A stretch of DNA of 60,035 nt, from NCBI GenBank assembly GCA_947652735.1, contig CANTEG010000016.1, positions 1-60,035 of the forward strand. The letters are read 5' to 3'. The position numbers and the translations under genes are program-made. The number at the start of each line of letters is the position of its first letter. Position 1 is the first letter of the stretch. The notes beneath the pieces are model-generated. The model saw only the letters and a program-made list of their open reading frames with translations. It did not search any database and was not told where the DNA came from. Of the stretch, positions 40,006-54,228 are shown in pieces. This stretch comes from an uncultured Lachnospiraceae bacterium (GTDB lineage Bacteria; Bacillota; Clostridia; Lachnospirales; Lachnospiraceae).

Positions 40006-40728
40006 TTACTTTTGAAACACAAATATATATTCATGTGCCAACAGAAGAAACTTATTGTTCTGTTTTTCCCAATAATTTGTAGAACGACAATTATGCTGTT
40101 CCTTAATAATAATCTCTTTATTCATAAATCCTGCCTGTAAAAAACAATCCATCATACGAAACCCTAAAGGTACAACTTTCCCATATTTTCTTACATCTCC
40201 TATCATTACAGCACACATTTTGCCTTTTTTGAGCACACGGAAAGCTTCTTCTGCCGCCTTTTTCATCTCAACCAAAAACTCATCCACAGCAAGCAAGGAA
40301 ATATCCCCTTTTATCTCTTTACTATATTTGATGATATTGGCATATGGTGGATGCGTACAGATAAAGTCAATGCGACCATCATTGATAAAATGTAAATCTG
40401 TAGCATTGCCATTTCGTGTAAATATTTTTGAATTTGCTTCACATTGGAATTGTAAATTTGTTTCAGAAATTGAAACGGATTGAGGATTGATGTCAACACC
40501 TATCGCATTACGATTAAGTAATTTCGCCTCGACCAAAGCTGTCCCACTGCCCATAAATTGATCCAAGACCCAGTCGCCAGGATTAGAATAGCGAAGTATC
40601 AGATTTCTTGGCACATACGGTGACCAATTCCCACGATATTTTCCTGAATGCGTTGCCCAACCTCCTCTGTCTGCAAACGACCAGACTGTCGTTGATTCAA
40701 GCTTGAAATTATTTGGTTGTAAATTTAT
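40006..40728 (-). CDS. Beta-class DNA methyltransferase with a non-canonical (ATA) start
   Basis: The open frame gives 240 residues when read from 40728. Conserved N-terminal segments are present: TTVWSFADRGGWATHSG, YRGNWSPYVPRNLILRYS, then the SAM motif LDQFMGSGTALVEAKLL and the catalytic THPPYANIIKYS. Only an ATA at 40726-40728 lies at the right place (8 bases after AAGGAGG); no ATG, GTG or TTG exists between it and the in-frame stop upstream. The first canonical start (GTG at 40612-40614) would remove the first 38 residues. Either ATA is used, or the start codon has been mutated. Target sequence unknown. Confidence 0.8.
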   Translation of the reverse strand: MNLQPNNFKLESTTVWSFADRGGWATHSGKYRGNWSPYVPRNLILRYSNPGDWVLDQFMGSGTALVEAKLLNRNAIGVDINPQSVSISETNLQFQCEANSKIFTRNGNATDLHFINDGRIDFICTHPPYANIIKYSKEIKGDISLLAVDEFLVEMKKAAEEAFRVLKKGKMCAVMIGDVRKYGKVVPLGFRMMDCFLQAGFMNKEIIIKEQHNCRSTNYWEKQNNKFLLLAHEYIFVFQK

Positions 40729-40743
40729 AAGACATCCCTCCTT

Positions 40744-40938
40744 TTATTTCCATTGATTGAAGTACTCTAAAACACCCACCATACCGTTTAGCATGAATGC
40801 TCTCATGACATCATTTTCAAATCTTATTTTATTCTCATCAGAAAGTTTATTATAGTCCTGTTGTATCTCTTGTATTTTATGCACTAGTCCTATTACAAAT
40901 TTATCATACTCGTATTTTTCTTCTTGAATTGATTTCAT
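40744..40938 (-). CDS. Small hypothetical protein at the head of the R-M operon
   Basis: 64 residues from the ATG at 40938, which follows AAAGGAG. It is predicted helical and charged (MKSIQEEKYEYDKFVIGLVH...), ending FNQWK. No family recognised. An upstream in-frame start at 41040 is rejected because it would span operator sequence and lacks a ribosome-binding site. Its stop lies 15 bases before the ATA codon of the methyltransferase, so the two genes share one message. Confidence 0.5.
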   Translation of the reverse strand: MKSIQEEKYEYDKFVIGLVHKIQEIQQDYNKLSDENKIRFENDVMRAFMLNGMVGVLEYFNQWK

Positions 40939-41011
40939 TATAGCTACTCCTTTCACTGATGATAACAATAAGTCTATACCAAATTCTTCAAAAAATCCAC
41001 CTCTATTTCCT

Positions 41012-41026
41012 TTCACAATAAGTGAA
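41012..41026. promoter_or_regulatory. Operator box 1 of the R-M island
   Basis: Perfect inverted repeat TTCAC-AATAA-GTGAA in the divergent intergenic region. It shares both arms with the box at 41057-41071. Confidence 0.6.
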
Positions 41027-41056
41027 TTTATATTAATCATATATCATGAGATAATA

Positions 41057-41071
41057 TTCACAAATAGTGAA
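41057..41071. promoter_or_regulatory. Operator box 2 of the R-M island
   Basis: Perfect inverted repeat TTCAC-AAATA-GTGAA, 45 bases centre to centre from box 1 and 13 bases before the ATG of the XRE regulator, so binding there should repress the regulator's own gene. Confidence 0.6.
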
Positions 41072-41083
41072 AGAGGCGTTTGT

Positions 41084-41323
41084 ATGCATTTCAACAATGA
41101 TACTGACCTATATCATGTTATAGGCACAAATATAAAATATTACAGAGAACAAAGAAAAATGACTCAAGTACAGCTTGCTGAGCAAGCACAAATCAGCATC
41201 AGCTATCTGTCTAAAATCGAGGCTGCCGGGTGCAATAAAAGCCTGTCTATATCTGTTTTAAACCAGATCGCTAATGTACTTTGTATTGAAATCAGTCAAT
41301 TTTTTAAGGAGGTAGATGCATAA
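41084..41323 (+). CDS. XRE-family regulator (controller-protein type)
   Basis: 79 residues, essentially one helix-turn-helix domain: IGTNIKYYREQRKMTQVQLAEQAQISISYLSKIEAA with a short C-terminal helix pair. Size and position are those of the C (controller) proteins of restriction-modification systems, which bind paired operators and time nuclease expression. It is divergent from the methyltransferase operon, and its stop overlaps the ATG of the next gene by one base. Confidence 0.88.
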   Translation: MHFNNDTDLYHVIGTNIKYYREQRKMTQVQLAEQAQISISYLSKIEAAGCNKSLSISVLNQIANVLCIEISQFFKEVDA

Positions 41324-41934
41324 TGACTTACGATAAAATGAAAGCTATTGTTTTAGACCTTCCTTTTGATACTATGACCGAAGTCTATAACAACAAAGAA
41401 CAAGCAATTCTAATTTATCGTCCCAGCACGTTATCTGAACGATTTAAAAACTATGATGTTACTACAAACTTTCAAATTTTTCTAAGAATAGGCGACGACA
41501 AACCATTCCGTCCAAATCACTTACGCCTCCTCATTGATTTAAAATTACGCGCAAGAGAACTTCCACAAGCAAAAAAAGAGCTTCTCAACGCTTTTGACAA
41601 AATATTTTATGGTGAAGAACCTCTATCTGCAATTAAACCATTAACCCACATTCGTTTTACTCAATATATTAATCCTATCGATATTACTGCTATATTAGCT
41701 CAGTTATTCATAATTGAACAAGACATCGGATATGGTAGGAAAAGTACATTTAACCCACCATCATTATATATACATGGTTGGATTCGTACATTTATCGAAG
41801 CAGACCAAGAAATAGACCAAGTAGTATATCGTATCTGTAAGAATACACCTCCAGCAGTAAAATATACGTGTCAGGATAACAAAAATCATCCTAAATACAA
41901 TCCAAATGCACCATTACTGTGGTATGTAGATTAA
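41323..41934 (+). CDS. Hypothetical protein coupled to the XRE regulator
   Basis: 203 residues, mixed alpha/beta, no signal peptide or membrane helix, no family that I can name with confidence. Segments that look conserved are FRPNHLRLLIDLKLRARE, NPPSLYIHGWIRTFIEA and PPAVKYTCQDN. Because it follows a controller-type regulator and faces an extra methyltransferase that otherwise has no nuclease, it may be a restriction endonuclease of a second system, but no catalytic motif is evident. Confidence 0.55.
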   Translation: MTYDKMKAIVLDLPFDTMTEVYNNKEQAILIYRPSTLSERFKNYDVTTNFQIFLRIGDDKPFRPNHLRLLIDLKLRARELPQAKKELLNAFDKIFYGEEPLSAIKPLTHIRFTQYINPIDITAILAQLFIIEQDIGYGRKSTFNPPSLYIHGWIRTFIEADQEIDQVVYRICKNTPPAVKYTCQDNKNHPKYNPNAPLLWYVD

Positions 41935-41937
41935 GAA

Positions 41938-41980
41938 AGTGGTAAGATGCTTCACTATAAGCATCTTACCACTCTTTTTA
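41938..41980. terminator. Strong terminator between the R-M island and rpsI
   Basis: A long perfect stem AGTGGTAAGATGCTT (41938-41952) with AAGCATCTTACCACT (41959-41973), 6-base loop, followed by CTTTTTA on the plus strand. The left side (CTTTCTTAAT on the minus strand) may also allow it to end the rplM-rpsI transcript. Confidence 0.88.
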
Positions 41981-42000
41981 AAAACAAAGATTTTCAAATA

Positions 42001-42402
42001 TTATCTCTTTGAGAACTGTGGTGCACGTCTTGCTGCCTTGAGACCGTATTTCTTTCTTTCCTTCATACGTGGGTCTCTTGTTAAGAAGCCAGCCTTCTTG
42101 AGCGCTGGTCTGTAATCAGCGTCTGCCTGAAGCAATGCTCTTGAAATACCATGTCTGATTGCTCCTGCCTGACCTGTAAATCCACCACCATGAACATTAA
42201 CAAGTACATCAAACTTTCCAGTCGTACCTGTTGTTACAAATGGCTGCTGAACGATTACCTTAAGTGTGTTAAGACCAAAGTAATCTTCCATGTCCTTCTT
42301 GTTTATCGTTATTTTTCCAGTACCCGGTACGAGATATACTCGTGCAATACTGCTTTTTCTTCTACCTGTTCCGTAAAATCTTGTACTCTTAGCCACGAAC
42401 AT
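42001..42402 (-). CDS. rpsI: 30S ribosomal protein S9
   Basis: 133 residues with the family landmarks [19 protein letters not shown], the [19 protein letters not shown] core and the C-terminal tail [10 protein letters not shown] whose last Arg contacts P-site tRNA. It is 11 bases after rplM, the universal pairing. Confidence 0.97.
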
Positions 42403-42413
42403 TTCCTCCCTTA

Positions 42414-42848
42414 CTAATACTTAATCTCTAAAGCTTCTGGTTTCTGTGCCTGCTGCTTGTGCTCAGGTCCTGCGTAAACATGAAGCTTCTTAATCATCTG
42501 TCTTCCAAGTGGTCCCTTTGGAAGCATACCCTTTACTGCAAGGTAAATAACGTCCTCAGGCTTCTTTGCAAGCTTTTCCTTAAGTGTCTGCTCTTTCATA
42601 CCGCCAACGTAATCAGAATGGTGATAATAAATCTTCTGATCCATCTTCTTGCCTGTAACCTTAATCTTCTCGGCGTTGACTACTACGATATAGTCTCCTG
42701 TATCAATATGTGGTGTAAATGTCGGCTTGTTCTTTCCTCTTAAAATACTTGCAATTTCAGATGATAAACGGCCTAATGTATGTCCAGTGGCATCAACAAC
42801 ATACCACTTTCTTTCAATGTTTGATGGGCTTGCCATAAAACTCTTCAT
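42414..42848 (-). CDS. rplM: 50S ribosomal protein L13
   Basis: 144 residues: [39 protein letters not shown] and [19 protein letters not shown] are typical of L13. It starts the rplM-rpsI operon behind a long structured leader. Confidence 0.97.
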
Positions 42849-43107
42849 TGTGGTTCCTCCTTAAACTAATCCAAAATATATCATAGATTGACAGGACTAA
42901 AAAGCCTTGTCCATAGGAAATAATTTTATTCCTATATCATGCAGGCATATGCAATCTTAGCTGAAATGTCCGAAACAGCCCATATATCATACCCGCAAAT
43001 CTAATTTACATTTTCAAAATCAATGGAGTTCAGATGAAAATGTAAACGTAAAGGACTACACACGGCACCGGGGCTTTGGTGTCATATACAGTCACACTTT
43101 TACACAG
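42849..43107 (-). promoter_or_regulatory. Long leader of rplM-rpsI, possible L13-type autoregulatory RNA
   Basis: About 260 bases separate the promoter from the rplM start. On the minus strand it can fold several hairpins: an 11-pair stem TTTACATTTTC/GAAAATGTAAA at about 43009-43050, ATAGGAA/TTCCTAT at 42911-42936, and a GGACAAGG/CCTGTC stem near 42888-42906. L13 leaders are known in Firmicutes; I did not match the published consensus, so the class is inference. Confidence 0.4.
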
Positions 43108-43113
43108 TTAAAT

Positions 43114-43142
43114 ATTATATTACACGAAGCCATGTGTGTCAA
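43114..43142 (-). promoter_or_regulatory. SigA promoter of rplM-rpsI
   Basis: Consensus TTGACA (43137-43142), exactly 17 bases, consensus TATAAT (43114-43119) on the minus strand. It lies just after the phosphopantetheinyl transferase stop, so the ribosomal operon is independent of the biosynthetic cluster. Confidence 0.9.
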
Positions 43143-43150
43143 ACACTTTT

Positions 43151-43795
43151 TTACGAAAACCTGACAGAAATATCAGAAATATCCATTGCACAAATGGCCA
43201 TCGTGTAGTCATCCAGTCTTTCCGTATAAAATTTATGTAGTTCCCCCTCCACACACATGTTTTCTATGTCCAGCAAAAAAGAGTCAAGGGGAACACTTAT
43301 CCCCTTGCCACTATACTTTAAATATGCTTCCTTCATCGTCCATACGCGAAAAAACCGTTCCGTCACAGCATCATTATCATCCTGCCCATCACCTAAAACA
43401 TAATCGTATTCCGATTTGGCAAAACATCGTTCGGCAACCTTTATATCCTTATTGCGAAGCTCCTCTATATCTGCTCCCACCTCTTGCTTAGAGTACGCGA
43501 GCATAACCATGTTTCCCGAATGGGAAATGTTATATTTAAACTCCTCATTCCCTTGCAGGAACGGCTTGCCATGCTCATTTTTTCCTATCACAATCTCCTC
43601 AGCCGACAAACCTAACACATCCTTTACTACCTCCTGCAAAAGAAGCCCTGCTGTCATTGACACATATGCCGCCTTTTTATTTTTGAATTTAAGAACCGCC
43701 TCCCGCCTTGCAGGATAAAGCATGTTTATAACTCTGTCAAAATTTTTTTCAAGATAGTCGGCATCAACTTTTTTGAATACTACGTTTATTTTCAT
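43151..43795 (-). CDS. 4'-phosphopantetheinyl transferase, Sfp type
   Basis: 214 residues of the Sfp family: GKPFL, YNISHSGNMVMLAYS, the Mg-binding VGADIEE and FFRVWTMKEAYLKYSGKG. It attaches phosphopantetheine to carrier-protein serines. Sfp-type enzymes usually serve secondary-metabolite carriers, in contrast to AcpS for fatty-acid synthesis. Last gene of the cluster; it should activate the ACPs at 47684 and 51544. Confidence 0.93.
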   Translation of the reverse strand: MKINVVFKKVDADYLEKNFDRVINMLYPARREAVLKFKNKKAAYVSMTAGLLLQEVVKDVLGLSAEEIVIGKNEHGKPFLQGNEEFKYNISHSGNMVMLAYSKQEVGADIEELRNKDIKVAERCFAKSEYDYVLGDGQDDNDAVTERFFRVWTMKEAYLKYSGKGISVPLDSFLLDIENMCVEGELHKFYTERLDDYTMAICAMDISDISVRFS

Positions 43796-43893
43796 TTTTT
43801 GCTCCGCTATATTCCAATTTTACATTTAGCATATGTTCCGATTTATTTTGTAAACAGGCAGTTTCGGGCTGTATACTTATTTTAATCATACCC

Positions 43894-44337
43894 TTACTGA
43901 TTATAAATATCCTCTTTGCTCATTGCGGTAAATGCAAGCATTCCTTTTGCTTTAACCTTGCCGTCAACCAAAACCTTTACATTAAATTTCATAAGCCCGG
44001 CACCGCCCATTTCCTTGGTTACTTCTATTTCAAGCATATCTCCCGGAAGTACAGGCTTTAAAAACTTAAAATCATCACACTTTAACAAAACATATATCTG
44101 GTTTTCATCGGTTCCCTCACTCTCAATCGTTATGGAGCAAAGCTGTGCTGCCGCCTCTATTACAAGCACTCCCGGCATAATAGGCGCATCAGGAAAATGT
44201 CCCGTGAAATATGGCTCATTTATCGAAACACATTTAATTCCCTTTGCATACTCACCTGCCCGCACCTCAACAACCTTTTCTATCATTTGAAACGGCGGTC
44301 TCTGTTTTATTCTTTTTTGAACCTCATTTATATTCAT
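43894..44337 (-). CDS. FabZ-like 3-hydroxyacyl-ACP dehydratase
   Basis: 147 residues of the hot-dog fold. RPPFQMIEKVVEV is followed by the active-site stretch GHFPDAPIMPGVLVIEAAAQL, in which His and Glu match the FabZ catalytic pair. Removes water from beta-hydroxyacyl-ACP. The start is one of two adjacent ATGs overlapping the end of fabG; I use the second. It belongs to the cluster, since it lies directly after the ketoreductase gene. Confidence 0.9.
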   Translation of the reverse strand: MNINEVQKRIKQRPPFQMIEKVVEVRAGEYAKGIKCVSINEPYFTGHFPDAPIMPGVLVIEAAAQLCSITIESEGTDENQIYVLLKCDDFKFLKPVLPGDMLEIEVTKEMGGAGLMKFNVKVLVDGKVKAKGMLAFTAMSKEDIYNQ

Positions 44338-44342
44338 CATAA

Positions 44343-45080
44343 TTATAAGCTTAAGCCTCCGTCTAATACAATAACCTGCCCTGTCATATATGAGCATGCA
44401 GGTCCTGCAAGCATTGCAACCATGTCTGCAACTTCCTCTGCGGTTCCAAACCGTTTGAGTGGAATATCCTTGAGATACTCCTCCTTTTTATCCTCAGGCA
44501 GTTGGTCTACCATGTCAGTTGCAATGAAGCCCGGTGCCACTGCATTCACCCTGATACCGTAAGGTGCCAGCTCCTTTGCCATTGTAGCCGTCATGGAATT
44601 CACGGCTCCCTTTGTGGAGCTGTAAACAGACTGCCCCGGCACTGCAAGCTTAGAGCTTACGGAAGAAACATTTATAATAACACCCTGCTTTTTAGAAAAC
44701 ATTTTAAGAACTGCCTGCTGGGTACAGTATAAATATCCCTTTATGTTAAGGTCAAGACATTTACTGATTGTCTCCTCACTCATCATAAGAACAAACTCAT
44801 CCTTTACAATACCTGCGTTATTCACAAGTACATCAAGCTGTCCGTAAGTATTTACAGTCTCCTTTATCAGTGTCTTCACCTCGTTAATATCAGAAACGTC
44901 CGCTTTAATGGCAGTTGCCTCACCGCCACAGGACTTTATGGCATCAACAACCTCATTTGCCGCCGCATCATTAGAATTGTAGTTTACAATGACCTTATAG
45001 CCATCCTTTCCCAGTTTTATGGCACAGGCACGTCCAATACCTCTGGATGCCCCTGTTACAAGTGCTACTTTTCCTTCCAT
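44343..45080 (-). CDS. FabG-like 3-oxoacyl-ACP reductase
   Basis: 245 residues, short-chain dehydrogenase: cofactor motif TGASRGIG (9-16), NNAG, the catalytic Ser in NVSSVSS and Tyr-x-x-x-Lys in VYSSTKG. Reduces beta-ketoacyl-ACP with NADPH. Clear ribosome-binding site AGGAG. Follows the KS-CLF fusion by 122 bases. Confidence 0.93.
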   Translation of the reverse strand: MEGKVALVTGASRGIGRACAIKLGKDGYKVIVNYNSNDAAANEVVDAIKSCGGEATAIKADVSDINEVKTLIKETVNTYGQLDVLVNNAGIVKDEFVLMMSEETISKCLDLNIKGYLYCTQQAVLKMFSKKQGVIINVSSVSSKLAVPGQSVYSSTKGAVNSMTATMAKELAPYGIRVNAVAPGFIATDMVDQLPEDKKEEYLKDIPLKRFGTAEEVADMVAMLAGPACSYMTGQVIVLDGGLSL

Positions 45081-45202
45081 ACTATACTCCTCACTTATTA
45101 AATATCAGTCAGGCGATTGTAAAACTCTGTTTGTGCGAATCCATTGTACAACTAAATTTTAATCATAAAGAGTTTCCCAATCGCCTAAGCAATATCCCAT
45201 TC

Positions 45203-47599
45203 TTATTCTGCCTTTTTCAATATAACTGCACTGTATGAACCGCCAACAGCATACGAAGTCGTAAGCACATACTTGTATGCGCTTGTATCAACCATCGCTG
45301 TCCTCACTTCATTTTTGTTTACATAATACGCCTTTTGTTCTCCTTGAATGTCTCCCGAAAGCACAAGTGCAGCATGAGCCACCGTAAGAGCACTGGCAGC
45401 CGCACGTCCCTCACCTGTTATATTTTTTATACAGTGTACAGGACATGTTCCTCCAAACAATTCACCATATACGGAGCATTCTATATCATCAACGGTTTTC
45501 ATACCATTGCCAAAGCCGTATATTGCATCGATATCATCCATGGATATACCTGCCATTGCCACGGCATCACGGATTGCATTTGCAAGTCCCTGTTCAGAAC
45601 CATTTACCTCACCATATACAATTGGTTCATGGGTCATTGCATAGCCTGCTACCTCAGCATACTTTTTCGCATTATGACTTTCTGCGTAAGCACCCTCTTC
45701 CAGCGTGATGGTCGTACTTCCGTCCGCCAATGTAAAACCGTTTCCACCCTGATATGTTTCATTTACGCTGTCTGCAATCATACCAAGCTGTCCATACAGC
45801 TTATTCATAACACGGCTGTTTTCATCCGTACCTGTTGCAAGCATAACCTTTGCCCTGTTCTGTTTTATTTCATTGTAAGCATAGCACACGCTGCTCATTC
45901 CTGCCTGTGCACCATTTGTAACGGTAACATTGTAGCCTCTCATGCCCGTCTTGATGGAAAGATATCCGCCTGCCGCATTATAAACGGTATTCGGGAAATT
46001 AAATGCCGAGCCTGCTATCGTTCCATTTTCGGAAATGTGCTCCTGAAACTCATAAACTGTAGTAAGGGGTCCATCACCCGTTCCGATAATCATTCCAAGC
46101 TGTTCCGCATTTTCAGGTGTAATCTCTATACCTGAATTTTCTAAGGCTTCAAGTCCTGATATAACCTGCATAATACTAAATTTATCCAGCTTTCTATAGA
46201 ACGCCATCTTAACGCCAAATTTATCGTAATCCTCTTTGCCTACACTTGCCTCAAGACTTGTGCACTCAGGTGTAATACCTGCTTTTACTTTTTCAATATA
46301 ATTATCCAGTCCATTTCCAAGAGGACTGACAATACCGATTCCGGTTATGTAAACCTTTTCGTCCGATTCAACCTCATCCATATTTCCCGGATTTTTGCTG
46401 AAAATAATACTTGCATTGCTTCCGCCAAATGCAAATGAGTTGGACATAACCGACGTCATTTCCTTGTGGCACATCTCATTTGGTCTGAAATCAAGCTTGC
46501 CTGCCTTTTCAGCGAGTGCTTCCATATCCTCATCTGAGTAACCGATTGTTGGTGGTATATCATTTTCCGTAAGAGCCTTAATTGCAAACACAGCTTCTAT
46601 TGCACCCGCGGCACCGAGACAATGCCCAACCATAGCCTTTGTTGAGCTTACTGTCAAATCATCATTTGCCTCATCAAATATTGTATGGATGGACAAAAAT
46701 TCAGCCTCATCATTTTTTGCGGTACCTGTTCCATGTGCATTAATATATCCGATATCCTTTGCCGTAAGTCCCGACCGCTCCATAGCTGTCCTTATGGCAT
46801 ACATCTGCCCCAGTCCGTCAGGGCGTGGAGCTGTTATATGATGTGCATCGCTGCTGATTCCTGCGGATAGCACATCACAGTATATTTTTGCATTTCTCTT
46901 CATCGCATGCTCATATGACTCAACCACGATTGCACCCGAACCCTCGCCAAGTGTGATACCGTTGCTGTGATTAAATGGGGAGCACGTTTCCTCCGAAAGT
47001 GCATGGAGTGCCAAAAACCCAGAGAAGGGCACTGATGCAAAGGCATCTGCTCCGCCTACTACAAAGGCATCCGCCACACCTGCACGGATAAGCTCACATG
47101 CATATGCGATACTGATGCTGCCTGCAGCACATGCATTTCCAACGTTTGTTACAACGCCCTTAGCCCCGATATAATTTGCCACATGGTTGGCTATAGAGGC
47201 TATACTCATCCTGTTTATATCCTCGGTTTTCTCACCGTTGTTTATATAATTTTCAATGCTGACAACGCCGCCCACGCAGCTTCCCATTATGACACCCACG
47301 CGGCCTGCATTTTCCTCATTTACCACAAGTCCCGCATCCTGACAAGCCTCAGCAGAGGCTTTCAGGCAGAGCTTGGAAACCCGATCCACCTTTTTTGCCT
47401 CGTCTATATCATCAAGGCTGTCGCATTTAACCTCAGCTCCAAGATTGGCATAGCAGTCAGTCGTATCCACCGACTGAACTTTATCTATACCTGTCTTTCC
47501 CGCCAATGCATTTTCCCAGCACTCATCAACACTGTTTCCGATAGCACTTATCATTCCAAGGCCTGTCACAACACAGCGTGTACTGATATCCTTTGCCAT
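45203..47599 (-). CDS. Fused ketosynthase-chain length factor (KS-alpha/KS-beta) protein
   Basis: 798 residues, two complete thiolase-fold ketosynthases in one chain. The first (about 1-403) resembles FabF and keeps the catalytic triad Cys157 (GNACAAGS), His289 (NAHGTGT) and His326 (VGHCLGAAGA). The second (about 414-798) starts again at VYITGIGIVSPLGNG but has Gln565 in place of Cys (TNGAQAGMSS), GFGNG instead of AHGTG, and no His in the third motif (NITGEGRAA). That is the pattern of a chain-length factor. The linker is only about ten residues. In known type II PKSs these are two separate proteins that form a heterodimer. Confidence 0.92.
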   Translation of the reverse strand: MAKDISTRCVVTGLGMISAIGNSVDECWENALAGKTGIDKVQSVDTTDCYANLGAEVKCDSLDDIDEAKKVDRVSKLCLKASAEACQDAGLVVNEENAGRVGVIMGSCVGGVVSIENYINNGEKTEDINRMSIASIANHVANYIGAKGVVTNVGNACAAGSISIAYACELIRAGVADAFVVGGADAFASVPFSGFLALHALSEETCSPFNHSNGITLGEGSGAIVVESYEHAMKRNAKIYCDVLSAGISSDAHHITAPRPDGLGQMYAIRTAMERSGLTAKDIGYINAHGTGTAKNDEAEFLSIHTIFDEANDDLTVSSTKAMVGHCLGAAGAIEAVFAIKALTENDIPPTIGYSDEDMEALAEKAGKLDFRPNEMCHKEMTSVMSNSFAFGGSNASIIFSKNPGNMDEVESDEKVYITGIGIVSPLGNGLDNYIEKVKAGITPECTSLEASVGKEDYDKFGVKMAFYRKLDKFSIMQVISGLEALENSGIEITPENAEQLGMIIGTGDGPLTTVYEFQEHISENGTIAGSAFNFPNTVYNAAGGYLSIKTGMRGYNVTVTNGAQAGMSSVCYAYNEIKQNRAKVMLATGTDENSRVMNKLYGQLGMIADSVNETYQGGNGFTLADGSTTITLEEGAYAESHNAKKYAEVAGYAMTHEPIVYGEVNGSEQGLANAIRDAVAMAGISMDDIDAIYGFGNGMKTVDDIECSVYGELFGGTCPVHCIKNITGEGRAAASALTVAHAALVLSGDIQGEQKAYYVNKNEVRTAMVDTSAYKYVLTTSYAVGGSYSAVILKKAE

Positions 47600-47683
47600 T
47601 TTGAAACTCTCCTTTTTTGTATTAATTTGATGGGACTGCCGCCTTAATAATCATGCGACAGTCCCTGTTAAATACATATATCT

Positions 47684-47932
47684 CTACATGTGCTCTACAA
47701 CATACTTCGTAAGACTTGTAATATTATAAAAATGCTCCTTTGCAACACCTGTCATAGCCACCCCATATGCTGAATCTATACACGCAATAATCTCAAGCGA
47801 GTCAACAGAATCAAGTCCGATACCATCACCGAAAAGAGCAATTTCATAATCAAGCTCCTCCTCAGGTATTCTTAAATTCTTTGAAAGCATCCCCTTAATA
47901 TTCTCTGCAATTTCTAATTCCTTTTCATTCAT
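47684..47932 (-). CDS. Acyl carrier protein 1
   Basis: 82 residues, four-helix ACP with the phosphopantetheine site Ser42 in GIGLDSVDSLEI. The acidic helix II is typical for contacts with ketosynthases. It lies 14 bases after the PlsC-like gene and 84 before the KS-CLF gene, so it is the likely chain carrier of this cluster. Confidence 0.95.
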   Translation of the reverse strand: MNEKELEIAENIKGMLSKNLRIPEEELDYEIALFGDGIGLDSVDSLEIIACIDSAYGVAMTGVAKEHFYNITSLTKYVVEHM

Positions 47933-47946
47933 AATTTTTCTCCTTT

Positions 47947-48588
47947 TTATTCTTTATTTTTATTTATGCCAAATTGATTTTTTAAATCAATGACTTTGCT
48001 TCTACAAATACCTGCATGCTTCTTTAATACAAGTGAGGGTCTTCCCTCCTCGAATTCAATGTTCATTGGCTTGCCGACAATAATATGTATTCTGTGAAAT
48101 ACCCTGAATGTTCCGTCAATACAGATTGGAACAACAGGCACATGCTCCATCTTTGCCAGCATCAAAAACCCCGGTTTAAACTCATCAGGCTCCCTATCCT
48201 TGCTTGTTTTGCCCTCAGGGAAAATATACACAGGTTTTCCTTCTTTAATTGTTTCTTTTCCAAGCTCCAGCCACGATGTATCCAGTTCTTTCCTGTCAAT
48301 CGGTATGTACGGAAGATTTCTAAACAGCCAGTTCAATTTCTTTTTGTCGTACCAGTCTCTTGCAACAAATGTATGGACATCATATTTTCCTAATATTCTG
48401 GTAAGATAAAGCCCGTCTACATGACTGGTGTGATTGGAAAACACCACGCAGCCTGCCCCAAATGCAGCAACCGTGTTTTTTTTGTCCTCCCATGTCAGCT
48501 TCGGCGGATACATAATTCTAATTACAACATTAGCGATTGCAAATGCACATTTTGCAACACCGCGTTTTATATTTTCAACCAAAGACAT
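47947..48588 (-). CDS. PlsC-like acyltransferase
   Basis: 213 residues of the lysophosphatidic-acid acyltransferase family. Catalytic NHTSHVD (H-x4-D), the YIPIDRKELD block and FPEGKTSKDR. One N-terminal hydrophobic segment would hold it at the membrane. Encoded 14 bases upstream of the ACP, it may transfer the finished acyl chain from ACP to a lipid or polyol acceptor; acceptor unknown. Confidence 0.88.
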   Translation of the reverse strand: MSLVENIKRGVAKCAFAIANVVIRIMYPPKLTWEDKKNTVAAFGAGCVVFSNHTSHVDGLYLTRILGKYDVHTFVARDWYDKKKLNWLFRNLPYIPIDRKELDTSWLELGKETIKEGKPVYIFPEGKTSKDREPDEFKPGFLMLAKMEHVPVVPICIDGTFRVFHRIHIIVGKPMNIEFEEGRPSLVLKKHAGICRSKVIDLKNQFGINKNKE

Positions 48589-48593
48589 ACCCT

Positions 48594-49328
48594 CTACCTC
48601 CCGTATGGTCCCACATCAGGTGTGTCCCAATTCATATTTATGGCAGTTTCAAATGTGTTGTGACCAAGCATCGGTCTTTGAAGCTTATTCCATGTCTGTT
48701 CAGAAATGCTTTTGTCACGGTAAAACTCACGCCCTGCCTCGGTAAATTTTTCTAAATATTTTTCCACCTTTGCGGCAAAGCCCTTTTCTGACAGCATTCC
48801 ACCTTGTGGTGCCAGAATTGTCGTGTACTTCCCTGTTCCGCATATTCTGTCAAATTGTGCAAATATTGCATCATAACAGTTGTCTGTCGTTTCATATCCG
48901 CATGTTGATACAAGCACAAGTTTCTTTTTCTGTAGCTCAGGATATCTCATATTATGTAAAAATCTGTGATTTTCTTCATCGCCAGGGTTCCCTCTGTATT
49001 CCTGAACGTATGATATCATTCTGTCCGTAAATGCCTTTAGCTTGGAGGGCATACCGAAAAAGTATAGGGGAAAGCTCTCAACGATAATGTCATTTTCCAT
49101 AACCAAACTCCTAAGCTCATCCATATCATCATGTATGACGCACTCCCCCGGCGTATTTTTCCAGCAGACAAAGCATCCCTGGCAGTGGCTGATGTTTTTA
49201 TCCTTTAAACTTATTTCCGTAACCGTGGCACCTGACTCCATAGCAATTCCATTTACAAATGCTCTTGCAACCTTAAGGGACGCACTAAGCTCTCCTCTCA
49301 AACTGCCATTTATCAGTAAAATCTTCAA
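48594..49328 (-). CDS. Flavodoxin-fold NAD(P)H-dependent reductase
   Basis: 244 residues. FMN-binding phosphate loop INGSLRGELSASLK, then a Cys cluster HCQGCFVCWKNTPGECVIHDD typical of iron-sulfur flavoproteins/NADPH-dependent FMN reductases, and SFPLYFFGMPSKLKAFTDR. TTG at 49328 lies 8 bases after GGGAGG and is preferred to GTG at 49334 (2 bases). It starts the KS operon proper and could reduce or isomerise the growing chain, which is inference. Confidence 0.85.
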   Translation of the reverse strand: MKILLINGSLRGELSASLKVARAFVNGIAMESGATVTEISLKDKNISHCQGCFVCWKNTPGECVIHDDMDELRSLVMENDIIVESFPLYFFGMPSKLKAFTDRMISYVQEYRGNPGDEENHRFLHNMRYPELQKKKLVLVSTCGYETTDNCYDAIFAQFDRICGTGKYTTILAPQGGMLSEKGFAAKVEKYLEKFTEAGREFYRDKSISEQTWNKLQRPMLGHNTFETAINMNWDTPDVGPYGR

Positions 49329-49459
49329 TTTCACAACCTCCCTATGGATATGTTCTTCAAGTGCTTTCTTTTAACATTTGTTCCATCATTTTCAACATAG
49401 GATATTTTCACACACGAAACAAAATAAAACAACAATCAATCAGCCTCACTTGTCTGATT

Positions 49460-49487
49460 TTTAGGCATTTACCATAAAATGCCTAAA
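49460..49487. terminator. Hairpin between the TetR unit and the KS operon
   Basis: Perfect stem TTTAGGCATTT (49460-49470) with AAATGCCTAAA (49477-49487), 6-base loop. The T-run is better on the plus strand; on the minus strand it would lie just after the 88-residue ORF. Confidence 0.5.
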
Positions 49488-49490
49488 TTT

Positions 49491-49757
49491 TTATTTATTT
49501 TTGGGGACACGCCGAAAGCTTTTTCTGCCATATTCATTTGTTTCTTGCACATATTCATATTGGTTTTCACACTGCTTGTTTTTTTCGTAATCTGCAATCA
49601 CCCTGTTTATATTGCCAATCGAAACAGGATATAGCAGTTGTTCCCTGATTTTCTCAGGAGATAACCCCTTTTCGTGCAGACGGATAACTGAATCTGCATA
49701 AGCAAATTCAGATACCATTTTACTAAGTGCAGCCTGAAAATATTTATTATCCTCCAC
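49491..49757 (-). CDS. Small hypothetical protein
   Basis: 88 residues, no family recognised. Helical and charged, with QAALSKMVSEFAYADSVIRLHEKGLSPEKIREQL at the front, which looks like a small helical domain, and a basic C-terminus (RKSFRRVPKNK). It lies between the TetR gene and the biosynthetic operon, preceded by its own 118-base gap. Function unknown. Confidence 0.6.
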   Translation of the reverse strand: MEDNKYFQAALSKMVSEFAYADSVIRLHEKGLSPEKIREQLLYPVSIGNINRVIADYEKNKQCENQYEYVQETNEYGRKSFRRVPKNK

Positions 49758-49875
49758 GTCCTATCCCTCTTTTCCCTGATAAATTCCAAAACATATGCCC
49801 GCTCTATTGATAAAACATACCATAATCATTAGTTACAGTATAGTTTCCCAAAAGAACGGGCATACATTTTTATAT

Positions 49876-50439
49876 TTAGTGCTTATTTGAAATATTTTTT
49901 AGTATAACATCAGGTACTTCACTCATTACTGCTATTATATTTTCCATAATCTGAACCGGACTTGGCTTTAATCTGCCCCGAATCCAATCAACCGCAGTTT
50001 CTGAAAATGCCTTTGCAAAACCATAAGTTACAGCCTTTAAATCTTCTTCATCAGCTATACCGTCTCCATATACCTTTAAGCTGTTATAAATAGGCTCCTC
50101 AGCTATGCTTGTCAGTTTATCGCCAAAAGCATCCCGTCCCATAGACTGATAAAGATACTTTATGAACTCCTCGTTCTTCACGGCATACTGCCCAATCAAC
50201 CTCAGACTTGCCTTCCATGAATCTTCTATATTTTCCTCATCAAGAACGAAAAGCTTTTGCATCTTTATGTCTATAATTTCCTCCAAAAGAGCATACACAT
50301 CCTGATAGTAATAGTAAAATGTATTGCGGTTTATGCCACATTTTTCTGTAATTTTAGTCACAGTAATTTTTTCAATGGGCATCTCCTTGGACAGCTTCAC
50401 AAAACTTTCCATAATGGCAAGCTTAGTAAAATTAGACAT
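49876..50439 (-). CDS. TetR-family transcriptional regulator
   Basis: 187 residues. The N-terminal helix-turn-helix reads KITVTKITEKCGINRNTFYYYYQDVYALLEEII, and the rest is the helical ligand-binding/dimer domain; the C-terminal part resembles the DhaS-like branch. It lies 26 bases after the BtrH-like gene and probably controls this cluster in response to an acyl or product ligand. Confidence 0.9.
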   Translation of the reverse strand: MSNFTKLAIMESFVKLSKEMPIEKITVTKITEKCGINRNTFYYYYQDVYALLEEIIDIKMQKLFVLDEENIEDSWKASLRLIGQYAVKNEEFIKYLYQSMGRDAFGDKLTSIAEEPIYNSLKVYGDGIADEEDLKAVTYGFAKAFSETAVDWIRGRLKPSPVQIMENIIAVMSEVPDVILKNISNKH

Positions 50440-50465
50440 AATATGTGTACCTGTAGTCTATTGTA

Positions 50466-51521
50466 TTAATTCTCCTCAAGCTCAGCTAATATTCTGAATA
50501 ATACGCAGACTTCCTTTTCCTTAGCTGTATCAAAATATTTTTTAAATCTTGAAGCAGCCTCAATCTCTCCTGTTATTGAAATTCTCACAAGAAGATTTCT
50601 GGCTGTAAGCATATTTGTTACAACAGTTTCATACTCATCAATTGTATCCTGATTATACTTAAGGTATCCGTTATTCATCAGATACTTTATTCTCTCAAGC
50701 ATAAGTACTTTATGGTCATACATGACATGAAGCGCCCTGATGTCATAATCAGGCTCCTCTGCATGAACCTGTCTTTCTATTTGGGCAAGGGTCTTATCAT
50801 AAACCTTGATACCAAATGTTGTATCATTAAATCTGTTCCTCATCATACGGAAATGGTTCTTTGTATCCATAGAGTTAAGATACTCTCTTAAGGTAGTTTT
50901 GATAAGCTCAATATCCACATCATAGCAGACAGTATCGCTGTTTTTCATTACTACATAAAGGCCTCTGCCGCCCTTGTAATCATCCTTAAACACATGGTCA
51001 TCCTTCTCCGTGATAACCTCATAGCCTCTTTCAATATCAGAGAACGAAACTGTATTGTATGAATAGTGATCCTGGAATGTAAAATCACCTACGTAGAATA
51101 TTTCCTCATCCCTGTTGTAGCCATATATAAACAACTCGTGAGGGAACTTATAGTCAACCTCTGCGTCGCAGAGAATCTTTGCCTCATCAAATACTCCGTA
51201 TACATATCCATTTAAATCGATAGTCTTTATGATAAAGTCAATAATGTTTCCGCAATAGCTCTCAATCTGTGCCTTAGTAAGAAGTGAGAACACAAGATAC
51301 GGACACTGTTTCAACGAACTGCTTCCCGGCATCATATCTGTAAGGAGCATCTCATCTCCTGTAAATATCTCTTGTATATTGTAGCAGCGAAGCTGGATAT
51401 AGTTACTGAAAATCCACTTTTTTGCATTCTCATCGTCTGAAAGGATAGAGAAAAGCGTTGCGTGCCACTGCCATGATGTAATAGTTGGGTAAGTTACCGG
51501 TAATTTTTTCATATCTGCCAT
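50466..51521 (-). CDS. BtrH-like (papain-fold) protein next to ACP2
   Basis: 351 residues. HELFIYGYNRDEEIFYVGDFTF near 150-172 matches the His/Asp half of the BtrH N-terminal fold, a Cys-protease-like acyltransferase that moves an acyl group from an ACP in butirosin synthesis. The N-terminal motif reads WQWHATLFSIL where active members have a His-Cys pair, so the nucleophile is not evident. The last 120 residues are helical. Position 22 bases after ACP2 supports a carrier-protein partner. The assignment is tentative. Confidence 0.5.
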   Translation of the reverse strand: MADMKKLPVTYPTITSWQWHATLFSILSDDENAKKWIFSNYIQLRCYNIQEIFTGDEMLLTDMMPGSSSLKQCPYLVFSLLTKAQIESYCGNIIDFIIKTIDLNGYVYGVFDEAKILCDAEVDYKFPHELFIYGYNRDEEIFYVGDFTFQDHYSYNTVSFSDIERGYEVITEKDDHVFKDDYKGGRGLYVVMKNSDTVCYDVDIELIKTTLREYLNSMDTKNHFRMMRNRFNDTTFGIKVYDKTLAQIERQVHAEEPDYDIRALHVMYDHKVLMLERIKYLMNNGYLKYNQDTIDEYETVVTNMLTARNLLVRISITGEIEAASRFKKYFDTAKEKEVCVLFRILAELEEN

Positions 51522-51543
51522 GTTTTCAATCCTCCAATACTAT

Positions 51544-51792
51544 TTACTGTGCTAATTTTTCTGATATTGTTGCTGCCAAATCTCCAAATGTATCATATGA
51601 AGATAACGCAAGCTCATAATCAGAAAATTGTACGTCAAATTTGCTTTCTGCCGCAACAATTAATCGAATCAAAGATACGGAATTCACCCCATAAATATCA
51701 GTAATCGAAGATGTCATGTTGATATCTTCAACATCTGGCAAAACGTCGCGAATAACTTCTTCCAGTTTCTTGTTAATCTGTTCCTTGTCCAT
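51544..51792 (-). CDS. Acyl carrier protein 2
   Basis: 82 residues with an ACP fold. The modification site is Ser38 in DIYGVNSVSLIRLI, where the usual Asp before Ser is Asn. It differs strongly from ACP1, suggesting a different substrate, for example a starter or an amino-acyl group as in butirosin. First gene of the cluster, behind its own promoter. Confidence 0.9.
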   Translation of the reverse strand: MDKEQINKKLEEVIRDVLPDVEDINMTSSITDIYGVNSVSLIRLIVAAESKFDVQFSDYELALSSYDTFGDLAATISEKLAQ

Positions 51793-51831
51793 TCTATATA
51801 CCCCCTGACAATATTTTATAGTCCAAAAAAT

Positions 51832-51860
51832 ATTTTACTATTTTTCACTGAAAAAATCAA
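51832..51860 (-). promoter_or_regulatory. SigA-type promoter of the ACP2-BtrH-TetR unit
   Basis: TTGATT (51855-51860), a 17-base spacer and TAAAAT (51832-51837) on the minus strand. A 13-base direct repeat CCCCTGACAATAT flanks it (51802-51814 and 51886-51898). Confidence 0.55.
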
Positions 51861-51901
51861 GATTATTATGCAATCTGAACAAATTCCCCTGACAATATGG
51901 A

Positions 51902-51988
51902 AGAACAAAGCGTCTTCGACGCTGTAGTCCGAGTCTTAGCAGGTTCCGCAAGAACATGCCAATAGGAAACGAAGTTTCCTATTATAAA
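51902..51988. repeat. Dispersed intergenic repeat, copy B
   Basis: Shares with copy A (18966-19085) the ordered blocks AAGAACAAAGC/CTTCG, CTTAGCAGG, ATAGGAAA...TTTCCTAT and ATAAAACAA. Here ATAGGAAAC pairs with GTTTCCTAT and AGCGTC with GACGCT. Like copy A it adjoins a terminator. The blocks between are shorter than in copy A. Confidence 0.6.
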
Positions 51989-51990
51989 AC

Positions 51991-52026
51991 AAAAGAGGCT
52001 GCCGCTATAAAGCGGCATCCTCTTTT
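51991..52026 (-). terminator. Intrinsic terminator after rplA
   Basis: AAAAGAGG-C-TGCCGC (51991-52005) with GCGGCA-T-CCTCTTTT (52012-52026), 6-base loop, ending in TTTTGTTTTAT on the minus strand. It ends the rpmG-rplA operon. Confidence 0.88.
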
Positions 52027-52048
52027 ATAACGTCTGTTGACAATTCTA

Positions 52049-52738
52049 TTAATACCTTGCAGTATTAAGCTTTACGCCAGGACCCATAGTGGAAGCGATA
52101 ACTACACTCTTAAGGTACTGACCCTTAGCAGCCGATGGCTTAGCCTTGATAACAGCATCTATTAAAGTTTGGAAGTTGTCTGTTAATTGCTCCTCTGAGA
52201 AAGAAGCCTTTCCAATTGGCACATGGATAATGTTTGACTTATCAAGTCTGTACTCAATCTTACCGGCTTTAATATCGTTGACAGCCTTTGTAACGTCCAT
52301 TGTAACTGTACCAGCCTTAGGGTTAGGCATTAATCCCTTAGGTCCAAGCACACGTCCGAGACGTCCAACAACACCCATCATATCCGGTGTAGCAACAACA
52401 ACATCGAAATCTAACCAGCCGTCATTCTGAATCTTTGGAACCAGCTCATCTCCACCTGCAAAATCAGCGCCTGCGGCTAAGGCCTCATCAACCTTATCAC
52501 CCTTAGCAAACACTAAAACCTTTACGGTCTTACCTGTTCCGTGCGGAAGTACAACTGCACCACGAACCTGCTGATCTGCATGACGTCCATCAACGCCAAG
52601 TCTTAAATGAGCTTCGATTGTCTCATCAAACTTTGCGCTTGCTGACTTCTTAACTAAAGATACAGCCTCTTCTAAGTCATAAAAATTTGTCTTTTCAATA
52701 AGCTTTGCAGCCTCTGTATATCTTTTACCTTTTTTCAT
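52049..52738 (-). CDS. rplA: 50S ribosomal protein L1
   Basis: 229 residues with [16 protein letters not shown] at the start, the [10 protein letters not shown] block and the highly conserved [21 protein letters not shown]1 is the mobile-stalk protein and a translational repressor of its own operon. In most Firmicutes rplJ-rplL follow; here a terminator and the acyl-carrier cluster follow instead. Confidence 0.97.
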
Positions 52739-52754
52739 TTAATAAAAACCTCCT

Positions 52755-52782
52755 GTGGTATTATCGGGAGCGACCCTCCCAC
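52755..52782 (-). promoter_or_regulatory. Candidate L1-binding operator before rplA
   Basis: The minus strand begins GTGGGAGGG and ends GATAATACCAC, with GTGG pairing CCAC and GGGA pairing TCCC around an asymmetric loop. This matches the base of the L1 stalk in 23S rRNA (GTGGGAGG...GAAATACCAC). The rplA ribosome-binding site AGGAGG follows at once, so L1 binding could block it. Confidence 0.7.
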
Positions 52783-52790
52783 TTTCTGTA

Positions 52791-52932
52791 ATTGATTGCG
52801 TCAGCAATCAATTGCCTACGCAATCACTCATTGCACATAGTGCAATTTCTAATGTGATTGCTCCTTTTCTTTTTTTGCCTACGCAATCGCCTATTGTACG
52901 CAGTACAATCTCAAATGCGATTGCTTCATTTC
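52791..52932 (-). repeat. Tandem structured repeats between rplK and rplA
   Basis: Two units of about 58 bases start at 52812 and 52875 (63-base period), each beginning TTGCCTACGCAATC. Unit 1 folds as GCAATCAC/GTGATTGC enclosing ATTGCAC/GTGCAAT; unit 2 as GCAATCGC/GCGATTGC enclosing ATTGTAC/GTACAAT. In both stems the differences are compensatory. A third hairpin with the same core, ATTGATTGC/GCAATCAAT, lies at 52791-52812. No coding role; likely RNA structures in the message. Confidence 0.75.
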
Positions 52933-52938
52933 CTGTAA

Positions 52939-53364
52939 TTAATCCTCTACAGTTATTCCCATTGAGCGGGCTGTTCCTGCTATCATGCTCATTGCAGCCT
53001 CAACAGAAGCAGCATTTAAATCAGGCATCTTAAGCTCAGCGATTTCCTGAAGCTTTGCCTTTGAAATCTTTGCAACTTTAGTCTTGTTAGGCACCGCAGA
53101 ACCTGACTTAATGCCGCACGCTTTCTTAAGCAGTACTGCTGCCGGCGGAGTCTTAGTTACAAAGCTGAAGCTCTTATCTGCATAAACTGTGATAACGACA
53201 GGAATAATCATATCTCCCTGATCAGCAGTTCTTGCGTTGAACTCCTTCGTAAACTGAACAATATTTACACCATGCTGTCCAAGTGCAGGACCAACAGGCG
53301 GTGCAGGTGTTGCCTTTCCTGCTGGAATCTGTAATTTAATGTATCCTTCTACTTTTTTCGCCAT
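52939..53364 (-). CDS. rplK: 50S ribosomal protein L11
   Basis: 141 residues from the ATG at 53364 after [26 protein letters not shown], the Pro-rich [16 protein letters not shown], and [13 protein letters not shown] near the rRNA-binding domain. An extra in-frame start at 53385 is rejected on spacing. Second last gene of the operon. Confidence 0.97.
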
Positions 53365-53388
53365 TATAGCGTACCTCCTAAACATATT

Positions 53389-53416
53389 GTGGTATTAACG
53401 GGGGATACCCTTCCAC
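53389..53416 (-). promoter_or_regulatory. Candidate L1-binding operator before rplK
   Basis: The minus strand begins GTGGAAGGG and ends GTTAATACCAC, with GTGG/CCAC and GGG/CCC pairs, the same design as the site before rplA (52755-52782) and the L1 stalk base of 23S rRNA. It lies in the nusG-rplK gap. Confidence 0.65.
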
Positions 53417-53427
53417 CTAAAAATAAC

Positions 53428-54009
53428 TTACATCTTTTGAATATCTGTGAATCCAATCTCAACGGATGTGGCTCTTCCAAAAATATCAACCTCGATGGTA
53501 ACCGTCTGTTTGCTTTCATTGATAGCCTTGATTTCGCCACTGTTTCCTTCCCACGCACCAGTTACAACCTTTATCATATCACCGATGGCAACATCAATCT
53601 GAATTTCTTTCACATTGATACCAAGGGTTCTCATCTCTGCCTCCGTCAACGGAACAGGCTTTGACTCCGGACCTACGAAGCCCGTAACGCCCCTTGTGTT
53701 ACGAACAATGTACCATGTGGCATCATTCATAAACATATTAATAAGCACATATCCCGGAAACAGCTTTCTGGAAACATTTTTCTTTACACCGTTTTTCACT
53801 TCCATGACATCTTGAACAGGCACTGCCACTTCAAGTATCTGGTCATGGAGCTTACGGTTTTCGATTGTCTTCTCAATATCGCTTTTAACTTTATTTTCGT
53901 AACCTGAGTAGGTATGAACTACATACCATCTGGCCTCGTTGCTGCTTGGTGTTCTCTCCAAACTGCCGCCGCTGCCTACAGTAGTTTCGCTTGCTACTAT
54001 TTCTGACAT
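53428..54009 (-). CDS. nusG: Transcription termination/antitermination factor NusG
   Basis: 193 residues from the ATG at 54009. The NGN domain (ARWYVVHTYSGYENKV, LFPGYVLI, TRGVTGFVG) is followed by a KOW domain (IGDMIKVVTGAWEGNSGEI). The first 25 residues are a flexible Ser/Thr-rich extension. It lies 12 bases after secE. A GTG four codons upstream is possible but badly spaced. Confidence 0.96.
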   Translation of the reverse strand: MSEIVASETTVGSGGSLERTPSSNEARWYVVHTYSGYENKVKSDIEKTIENRKLHDQILEVAVPVQDVMEVKNGVKKNVSRKLFPGYVLINMFMNDATWYIVRNTRGVTGFVGPESKPVPLTEAEMRTLGINVKEIQIDVAIGDMIKVVTGAWEGNSGEIKAINESKQTVTIEVDIFGRATSVEIGFTDIQKM

Positions 54010-54021
54010 ATATTCACCCAC

Positions 54022-54228
54022 CTAACCTATTATCTGCTCTAAACCCAATGCCAGCAGTATGTCAACTCCGTAAATAAGACAACCCAGAAGGATTGCCACC
54101 ACCAGAACAACAATTGACTGCTTAATCAAAGATTCCTTTGTAGGCCATACAATCTTTGCAAACTCTGCTTTAAGCTCTTGGAACCAGCTTCTCTTAAGTG
54201 TAGGCGATGTCTCTTTGTTTTTAGCCAT
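54022..54228 (-). CDS. secE: Preprotein translocase subunit SecE
   Basis: 68 residues from the ATG at 54228 (GGAGATTGTAT before it): a basic amphipathic part with WFQELKAEFAKIVWPTKES, the family signature, and one membrane helix (about 38-60). It clamps SecY in the translocon. Confidence 0.95.
   Translation of the reverse strand: MAKNKETSPTLKRSWFQELKAEFAKIVWPTKESLIKQSIVVLVVAILLGCLIYGVDILLALGLEQIIG

Follow-up and report, generated by a model that had tools for sequence, protein, structure and literature searches.

Gene content of the locus

We analyzed a 60,035-nucleotide stretch of DNA from an uncultured Lachnospiraceae bacterium (GenBank assembly GCA_947652735.1, contig CANTEG010000016.1, positions 1 to 60,035; hereafter, the window), and in it a run of minus-strand genes at 43151-51792. 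A preliminary description made from the sequence had read this run as one complete cluster for a polyene-like or unsaturated acyl product. Every gene class that it named is present, as judged by open reading frames (ORFs), Pfam and NCBIfam. Our comparisons resolve the run into two overlaid systems: a mobile six-gene module, which we consider somewhat likely to build a conjugated polyenoyl chain and put it on a membrane glycerolipid, and a three-gene carrier-protein system (the trio) that surrounds it. Below, G labels denote genomes (G000 holds the window) and L labels denote loci compared.

The first module gene encodes a flavodoxin-fold, iron-sulfur-flavoprotein-like reductase of 246 aa (48594..49334; PF02525/PF03358, with the motif CX2CX2CX7C). 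It is followed by a PlsC-like acyltransferase of 213 aa (47947..48588; PF01553, 80.3 bits; NHX4D and FPEG motifs), an acyl carrier protein (ACP) of 82 aa, ACP2 (47684..47932; PF00550, 28.8 bits; LDSVDSLE), and a fused ketosynthase–chain-length-factor-like protein (KS-CLF) of 798 aa (45203..47599), which matches the fabF model in two stretches (500 bits). The last two genes encode a FabG-like ketoreductase (KR) of 245 aa (44343..45080; PF13561, 218 bits; S-Y-K and TGX3GIG) and a FabZ-like dehydratase (DH) (43894..44397, conserved part from approximately 44337), which scores 133 bits against the NCBIfam FabZ model (cut-off 113) and contains the catalytic H/E region in a motif check.

The trio comprises ACP1, a carrier protein of 82 aa (51544..51792; Pfam PF00550, 37.4 bits), a BtrH-like protein of 351 aa (50466..51521) that is a remote relative of BtrH_N proteins, and an Sfp-type 4'-phosphopantetheinyl transferase (PPTase) of 214 aa (43151..43795; Pfam PF01648 and PF22624). 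A TetR-type regulator (49876..50439; TetR_C_8, Pfam PF14278) and a small ORF of 88 aa (49491..49757) lie between the BtrH-like gene and the module. Genes named from the sequence as rplM/rpsI flank the locus on one side and rplA/rplK/nusG on the other.

As the preliminary description had noted, neither an enoyl reductase nor a malonyl transacylase is found among the genes at 43151-51792, and the genome's own FabK, used as a tblastn query, gave no match in window positions 40001-55000. GC content is 36.9-44.9% in the module genes and 35.3-43.0% in their neighbors; the two ranges overlap, and composition shows no foreign signature. No near match to the module was found in a phage collection.

Ketosynthase and chain length factor are fused in a single chain

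The preliminary description had listed a KS-CLF. A single stop-free reading frame of 798 aa contains both ketosynthase units. Alignment with FabF revealed that the N-terminal half keeps C157/H289/H326, and that the C-terminal half has A564/F696/E730 instead. The same pattern recurs in 18 fused proteins from several lineages: the C-H-H residues are kept in 18/18 first halves, and none of the three stands at the corresponding positions of the second halves (0/18). The window protein therefore has the one C-H-H unit and the one unit without it that characterize type II KS-CLF proteins, in a single chain rather than as the separate subunits of a heterodimer. It may work as a KS-CLF at most in this single-chain form.

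In a tree of the separated halves, the window-type first halves form one clade and the window-type second halves another (support 100/100 each), and all 13 second halves cluster together (97/96). The window-type first halves join those of Priestia and G032 weakly (82/72). Long branches and unequal composition were flagged in this tree, which contains no aryl polyene or ishigamide KS-CLF pair; the FastTree tree of the fused-protein comparison is midpoint-rooted.

Fused proteins are found outside the window-type set as well: a Priestia plasmid carries one in a set with a GcvT-like gene, a Streptomyces plasmid has one in a polyketide set, and further examples are in G682/G642. In the Streptomyces case (Streptomyces sp. 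NBC_00536 plasmid, L135 11950-14313), a 787-aa fused KS-CLF and two single ketosynthases belong to one polyketide set. G032, of the same order (L029, L030), has eight matches to the KS-CLF query, including an 812-aa fused KS-CLF. It also carries a set with several ketosynthase-like genes, in which the catalytic residues are lost in 3/6.

A separate operon for housekeeping fatty acid synthesis

The genome that holds the window encodes FabH, FabK, FabD, FabG, FabF and FabZ in one gene run elsewhere (G000:C28); the FabK of this run scores 444.6 bits, slightly below the cut-off of 453.1. The window proteins are clearly distinct from those of this type II fatty acid synthesis (FASII) operon, with 38% identity between the first half of KS-CLF and FabF, 44% between KR and FabG, and 39% between DH and FabZ. 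Across 37 genomes of the genus, a full-length fused KS-CLF is present in 10 (78-100% identity). It was not found in the other 27, some of which are incomplete; several genus genomes have a completeness of 64-88%, which makes absences there weaker. The preliminary description had proposed a dedicated acyl pathway, to be abandoned if the window set were the genome's only FabF/FabG/FabZ set. It is not the only set, and because the genome has its own FASII operon elsewhere, with FabK and FabD, the window set is not the housekeeping one.

The trio and the module appear to be separate systems

A gene-neighborhood survey did not sustain the idea of one complete cluster. The BtrH-like gene was detected in 31/37 genus genomes at 79-100% identity (one further match of 25% was left uncounted), namely all 10 genomes with the fused KS-CLF and 21/27 genomes without it. 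Inspection of 16 genus loci with this gene, the window included, placed ACP1 immediately before it in 16/16, as in 9/9 loci of other genera. In 15/16 of these loci the PPTase comes next; the exception is G042, in which it is found with the module on another contig, and in G001 it is a 138-aa ORF only. In 10 genus loci, no module separates the BtrH-like gene from the PPTase (G004, G006, G011, G013, G017, G023, G041, G044, G050, and G051), and in five the module sits between them (G000, G001, G015, G043, and G048).

We then looked beyond the genus. Among 397 genomes drawn from the family, 25 match the BtrH-like protein, 11 of them at ≥64% identity (own genome included). Nine of these 11 loci (L091-L099) lie in eight other genera, where the trio is adjacent in 9/9, no KS-CLF is present in 9/9, and rplA is alongside in 4/9. 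Because the trio occurs without the module across the genus and in other genera, it is the older system at this place, with the rest inserted into it. By the same comparison, ACP1 and the BtrH-like protein do not seem to be part of the acyl pathway. Treating the two systems separately also guards against misinterpreting the BtrH-like trio.

The BtrH-like protein of the window has no match to Pfam BtrH_N (PF14399) at E values up to 1, and 6/8 of its distant relatives match this model, all under the cut-off (best E value, 1.2e-5). It shares with BtrH of butirosin biosynthesis these weakly matching relatives and an adjoining carrier protein. BtrH works through a cysteine; in contrast, 14 aligned sequences of the BtrH-like family have no invariant cysteine, Cys73 being kept in 12/14. 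Its degree of conservation is close to that of a ribosomal protein (97% identity between G000 and G001/G015, compared with 95-96% for rplA). No synthase, ligase or known product was seen beside the trio in the genus loci or in L091-L099.

The module is cohesive and appears to move horizontally

All six module genes are present, in one conserved order, in 10/10 genus genomes with the fused KS-CLF, although a contig end cuts the last gene in G017, and this association appears to exceed chance. An ortholog of the flavoprotein (≥72% identity; next best, 41%) is present in exactly those 10/37 genomes, and ACP2 is 93-99% identical in the nine other genus genomes with the module.

G011 provides an empty site. 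Its BtrH-like protein is 98.6% identical to that of the window, it has no KS-CLF, and its gene order is rplA-ACP1-BtrH-small ORF-PPTase, without the TetR gene and the six-gene module. Compared with G011, the window has two extra stretches, approximately 49900-50464 with the TetR gene and 43718-49496 from the flavoprotein gene through the dehydratase gene. The intervening small ORF is kept and belongs to the core locus rather than to the module: window 49497-49899 aligns with G011 at 83%, and the ORF is 86% identical. A TetR gene is also found near the module in G006, G050, L120, and Lachnospira eligens. Between the PPTase and rplM, G011 has an ECF-sigma-factor-like gene of 556 aa (L052 11616-13286); a 561-aa ORF occupies this place in G048 (L046 6548), and the window has no such gene there.

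Mosaic identities in G048 show that the module was exchanged between species. Compared with G000, the rplA and BtrH genes of G048 are 94.3% and 91.8% identical at the nucleotide level; the G048 module, however, is 96-99% identical to those of G001/G015 and just 72-88% identical to that of G000. The PPTase gene follows the module (96.2% to G015, 70.0% to G000), and the TetR gene does not (86.5% to G000, 73.5% to G001), which would place the break between TetR/small ORF and the flavoprotein gene. The BtrH and rplA genes thus stayed with the species where the module was swapped. On these comparisons, the module appears to move horizontally, in some genomes together with the PPTase. With an archaeal-type lipid in mind, we considered as a further module part a glycerol-1-phosphate-dehydrogenase-like gene that adjoins the module in G006, G041, and G050, and rejected it: it is present in 26/37 genus genomes and was not found in G000.

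Related sets in other Clostridia and on plasmids

Scanning genome contigs with the second half of KS-CLF returned 19 loci, 18 fused and one unfused (Chryseobacterium). The fused loci comprise eight of the same genus (including Eubacterium sp. MSJ-21), all from genomes already in the 37-genome set, two from Lachnospiraceae metagenome-assembled genomes of horse feces, and eight from further Clostridia (including Lachnoclostridium sp. MSJ-17). Because the scan used two short peptide patterns, 18 is a lower bound; L. eligens was not returned. A plasmid collection yielded this species, with matches on NC_012780.1 (the megaplasmid of strain ATCC 27750) and NZ_CP085937.1 at 56% identity over 99% of KS-CLF. 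Among the best matches listed for 391 genomes drawn from the class, full-length fused proteins occur in the own genome, in G504, G641, and G530 (approximately 970 bits for these three), and in G682 and G642 (approximately 490 bits).

We compared 24 window-type loci: 10 of the genus, L119-L128, L133 (L. eligens), G504, G641, and G530. The flavoprotein gene belongs to the set in 24/24, in L. eligens six genes after KS-CLF. PlsC was found in 16/24 loci and cannot be scored in L122, which is cut by a contig end. The set's own dehydratase gene was found in 19/24 (the G017 copy being contig-cut), and in L126 and G504 the stretch ends before its presence can be judged. A patatin phospholipase gene follows the set in 7/24 (L119, L121-L125, and L128).

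Three sets, in L120, L127, and L133, include FabD followed by AccD/AccA-type genes, the L127 contig ending inside the carboxyltransferase gene; the L. eligens set (L133) also carries PlsX. At these three loci, the stretch examined contained neither a FabK-like gene nor a second short-chain reductase. A FabK-like gene is present in 3/24 loci, each time in an adjoining housekeeping operon. In the other 21 there is none, and the module ketoreductase is the sole short-chain reductase found; given the shortness of many of these contigs, a reductase may lie farther away. The three loci with FabK are G504, G641, and G530 (L149-L151), where a FabH-FabK-FabD-FabG-FabF(-FabZ) operon, its FabZ being seen in G641 and G530, is immediately preceded by window-type genes for ACP, fused KS-CLF, KR, and flavoprotein.

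The flavoprotein and the acyltransferase

The window flavoprotein combines a flavodoxin-like fold (Pfam) with a compact cysteine motif, two features of iron-sulfur flavoproteins (ISF), for which the motif CX2CX2CX5-7C is given in PMC3164229. The variant CX2CX2CX7C is present in the flavoprotein of 24/24 loci, window included. The flavin-binding fold and compact motif are shared with ISF of anaerobes as there described; we saw no report of an ISF with a fused KS-CLF. The PlsC assignment is likewise backed by an acyltransferase domain, NHX4D, and FPEG in the window protein; NHX4D is kept in 13/13 PlsC-like sequences, and an FPEG-type pattern in 8/13.

Two flavoproteins with the compact cysteine motif also occur in a granadaene-like operon of G682/G642, two Clostridia genomes (L152, L153). 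The upstream one has CX2CX2CX7C, and in the one next to the fused KS the last spacing is four or eight. This operon includes the fused KS and a GcvT-like gene, and its ABC transporter and glycosyltransferase families were confirmed in G682. We know of no product for it. The flavoprotein is thus a constant partner of the module and a putative reductase, a role compatible with a polyene. Its counterparts in a granadaene-like operon speak against a chain-saturating enoyl reductase, without excluding that role.

Comparison with known biosynthetic systems

The preliminary description knew of no characterized product from such a gene set in this family, which is too strong: according to PMC6985545 and PMC6498181, granadaene-type operons of Gram-positives (cyl, and fun of Limosilactobacillus reuteri R2lc) share its core. 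They contain ketosynthase, ketoreductase, ACP, and PPTase genes, a dehydratase in cyl, and no enoyl reductase, and funB is listed as a ketosynthase of 798 aa. Besides this fatty-acid-like core, a fused KS of like build is found in the granadaene-like sets of Priestia pBM500 and G682/G642. The window module differs in having a PlsC-like gene and no GcvT-like CylF, ABC transporter, or glycosyltransferase, and its fused KS-CLF forms a clade of its own for each half. Only KR, ACP, and DH of the granadaene gene classes are found in the module; CylE was not searched for, every module gene being assigned to another family.

Aryl polyene clusters (ApeO-ApeC) contain KS and chain length factor, KR, DH, ACP, and the lysophospholipid acyltransferase ApeD, with no enoyl reductase in the gene table of PMC8253772. 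These classes and that absence are shared with the window. In that table, however, KS and CLF are separate genes, and the window lacks its aryl starter activation, ApeJ, ApeK, and transport genes; the window gene list does not correspond to such a cluster. A third system is the plasmid-borne pks cluster of L. reuteri R2lc, with a KS of 688 aa, ACP, KR, DH, a malonyl acyltransferase (MAT), four acetyl-CoA carboxylase (ACC) subunits, and a PPTase, whose mutant loses absorbance at 395-410 nm (PMC6498181). It resembles the window as a Firmicutes set with KS, ACP, KR, DH, and PPTase. Among the table rows listed there is no PlsC/PlsX or flavoprotein, and its MFS transporter and ACC genes are not in the window. 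Celluxanthene clusters were considered as the closest relative and rejected, being described in PMC12144888 as type I iterative polyketide synthases.

Among the open-access titles and abstract openings listed, none describes this gene set, and none describes an L. eligens polyene gene cluster. No comparison set joins a fused KS-CLF with both the flavoprotein and PlsC while lacking the genes for sugar, amino-acid, and transport functions. Elsewhere in the window, a T-box leader (8296-8545, minus strand; Rfam RF00230, 140.8 bits) lies directly upstream of an alpha-isopropylmalate-synthase-like gene (6558-8228).

Predicted product and alternative readings

Our best reading, to which we give modestly better than even credence, is a granadaene-like polyene core, with a membrane lipid as the acceptor of the acyl chain. 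The Sfp-type PPTase would arm ACP2, and FabD, which is encoded in the housekeeping operon here and within the set in L. eligens and two other relatives, would load malonyl units. The N-terminal half of KS-CLF would condense these units, with the catalytically dead C-terminal half shaping the pocket and setting the length. KR and DH would convert each keto group to a double bond that no dedicated enoyl reductase removes, and PlsC would then acylate a lysolipid with the completed chain carried by ACP2.

Several observations favor this reading. The C-H-H residues are confined to the N-terminal half in 18/18 fused proteins, the genome has a separate FASII operon, and a FabK-like gene is lacking in 21/24 loci. 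The flavoproteins of G682/G642 are compatible with a polyene, and the mosaic identities of G048 fit a moving module. Sets in three lineages (L120, L127, and L133) bring malonyl-CoA carboxylase parts and malonyl transferase with no recognized enoyl reductase, and so look built to leave double bonds; they support a polyene, and with it the conjugated product of the preliminary description, better than the window alone does. The PlsC, PlsX, and patatin neighbors indicate that the chain probably ends on a glycerolipid; the preliminary description had suggested a lipid or an amine.

Several observations weigh against it. PlsC was not found in 7/24 loci (L124, whose available upstream sequence is just 330 bp, L126, L127, L133, G504, G641, and G530), L119 has no dehydratase gene in 21 kb, and in G641 and G530 the sole dehydratase gene is the FabZ of the neighboring FASII operon. 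Genes for export, starter supply, and sugar transfer are missing from the module. FabF is the nearest solved structure to the KS half, and housekeeping FabK might supply enoyl reduction in trans. The co-conserved flavoprotein could itself reduce the double bonds; the preliminary description had held that a tightly co-conserved enoyl reductase would speak against its proposal, and while none was recognized, the flavoprotein could be one.

The leading alternative is an auxiliary fatty acid synthase. Its products would be membrane-lipid chains of a special length, saturated or mono-unsaturated, and either housekeeping FabK or the module flavoprotein would carry out enoyl reduction. We regard this as possible but rather unlikely. 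The best solved structures for the KS half are those of FabF (283 bits; the 6kxd ketosynthase scores 176 and the actinorhodin KS 159), the flavoprotein is invariably present, FabK is encoded in the own genome, and the module adjoins FabH-FabK-FabD-FabG-FabF in G504, G641, and G530. However, the sets with their own FabD and AccD/AccA-type genes, the contig-cut L127 among them, show neither a FabK-like gene nor a second short-chain reductase, and we know of no flavodoxin-fold acyl enoyl reductase. Moreover, a granadaene-like operon also contains flavoproteins of this motif type, and the known product of granadaene-type operons is a polyene.

It is improbable that the locus is a single pathway in which the BtrH-like protein and ACP1 pass the finished chain to an amine. 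The genes do adjoin on one strand in the window and in G001, G015, G043, and G048, and a divergent BtrH-like gene in L103 is flanked by the gene of an AMP-binding enzyme and by a small ORF about as long as a carrier-protein gene. Against this, most genus genomes without KS-CLF have the BtrH-like gene, 5/10 KS-CLF genomes have it elsewhere or on another contig, and BtrH and rplA stayed with the species while the module was exchanged. With the BtrH-like protein and ACP1 forming a genus-core trio with the PPTase, the idea that the chain ends on an amine loses its basis. Equally improbable is that the cells release the product into the medium, as a free polyene or an unsaturated carboxylic acid acting as signal or antimicrobial: an alpha/beta hydrolase near the start of the L. 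eligens set could release the chain, but the module has no thioesterase or exporter and has acyltransferase genes instead (PlsC; PlsX in L. eligens). Finally, housekeeping fatty acid synthesis, whose enzyme classes the window set shares, is refuted by the FASII operon at G000:C28 and by the 27/37 genus genomes in which no fused KS-CLF was found.

Returning to the polyenoyl lipid, we tentatively propose a broader view, with somewhat less than even confidence. Gut Clostridia, including the human commensal L. eligens ATCC 27750, may carry a moving, near self-contained machine for undescribed polyenoyl membrane lipids, with a single-chain KS-CLF and an obligatory iron-sulfur flavoprotein. The trio by the rplA operon would be a second, unrelated, slowly evolving carrier-protein system whose locus is the landing site. 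The L. eligens copy makes the reading testable in a cultured strain, and the single-chain KS-CLF would be a handy object for learning how a dead half sets chain length. Conjugated acyl chains are unstable and light-sensitive. If the reading is true, gut anaerobes make conjugated-chain membrane lipids that lipid studies may have missed.

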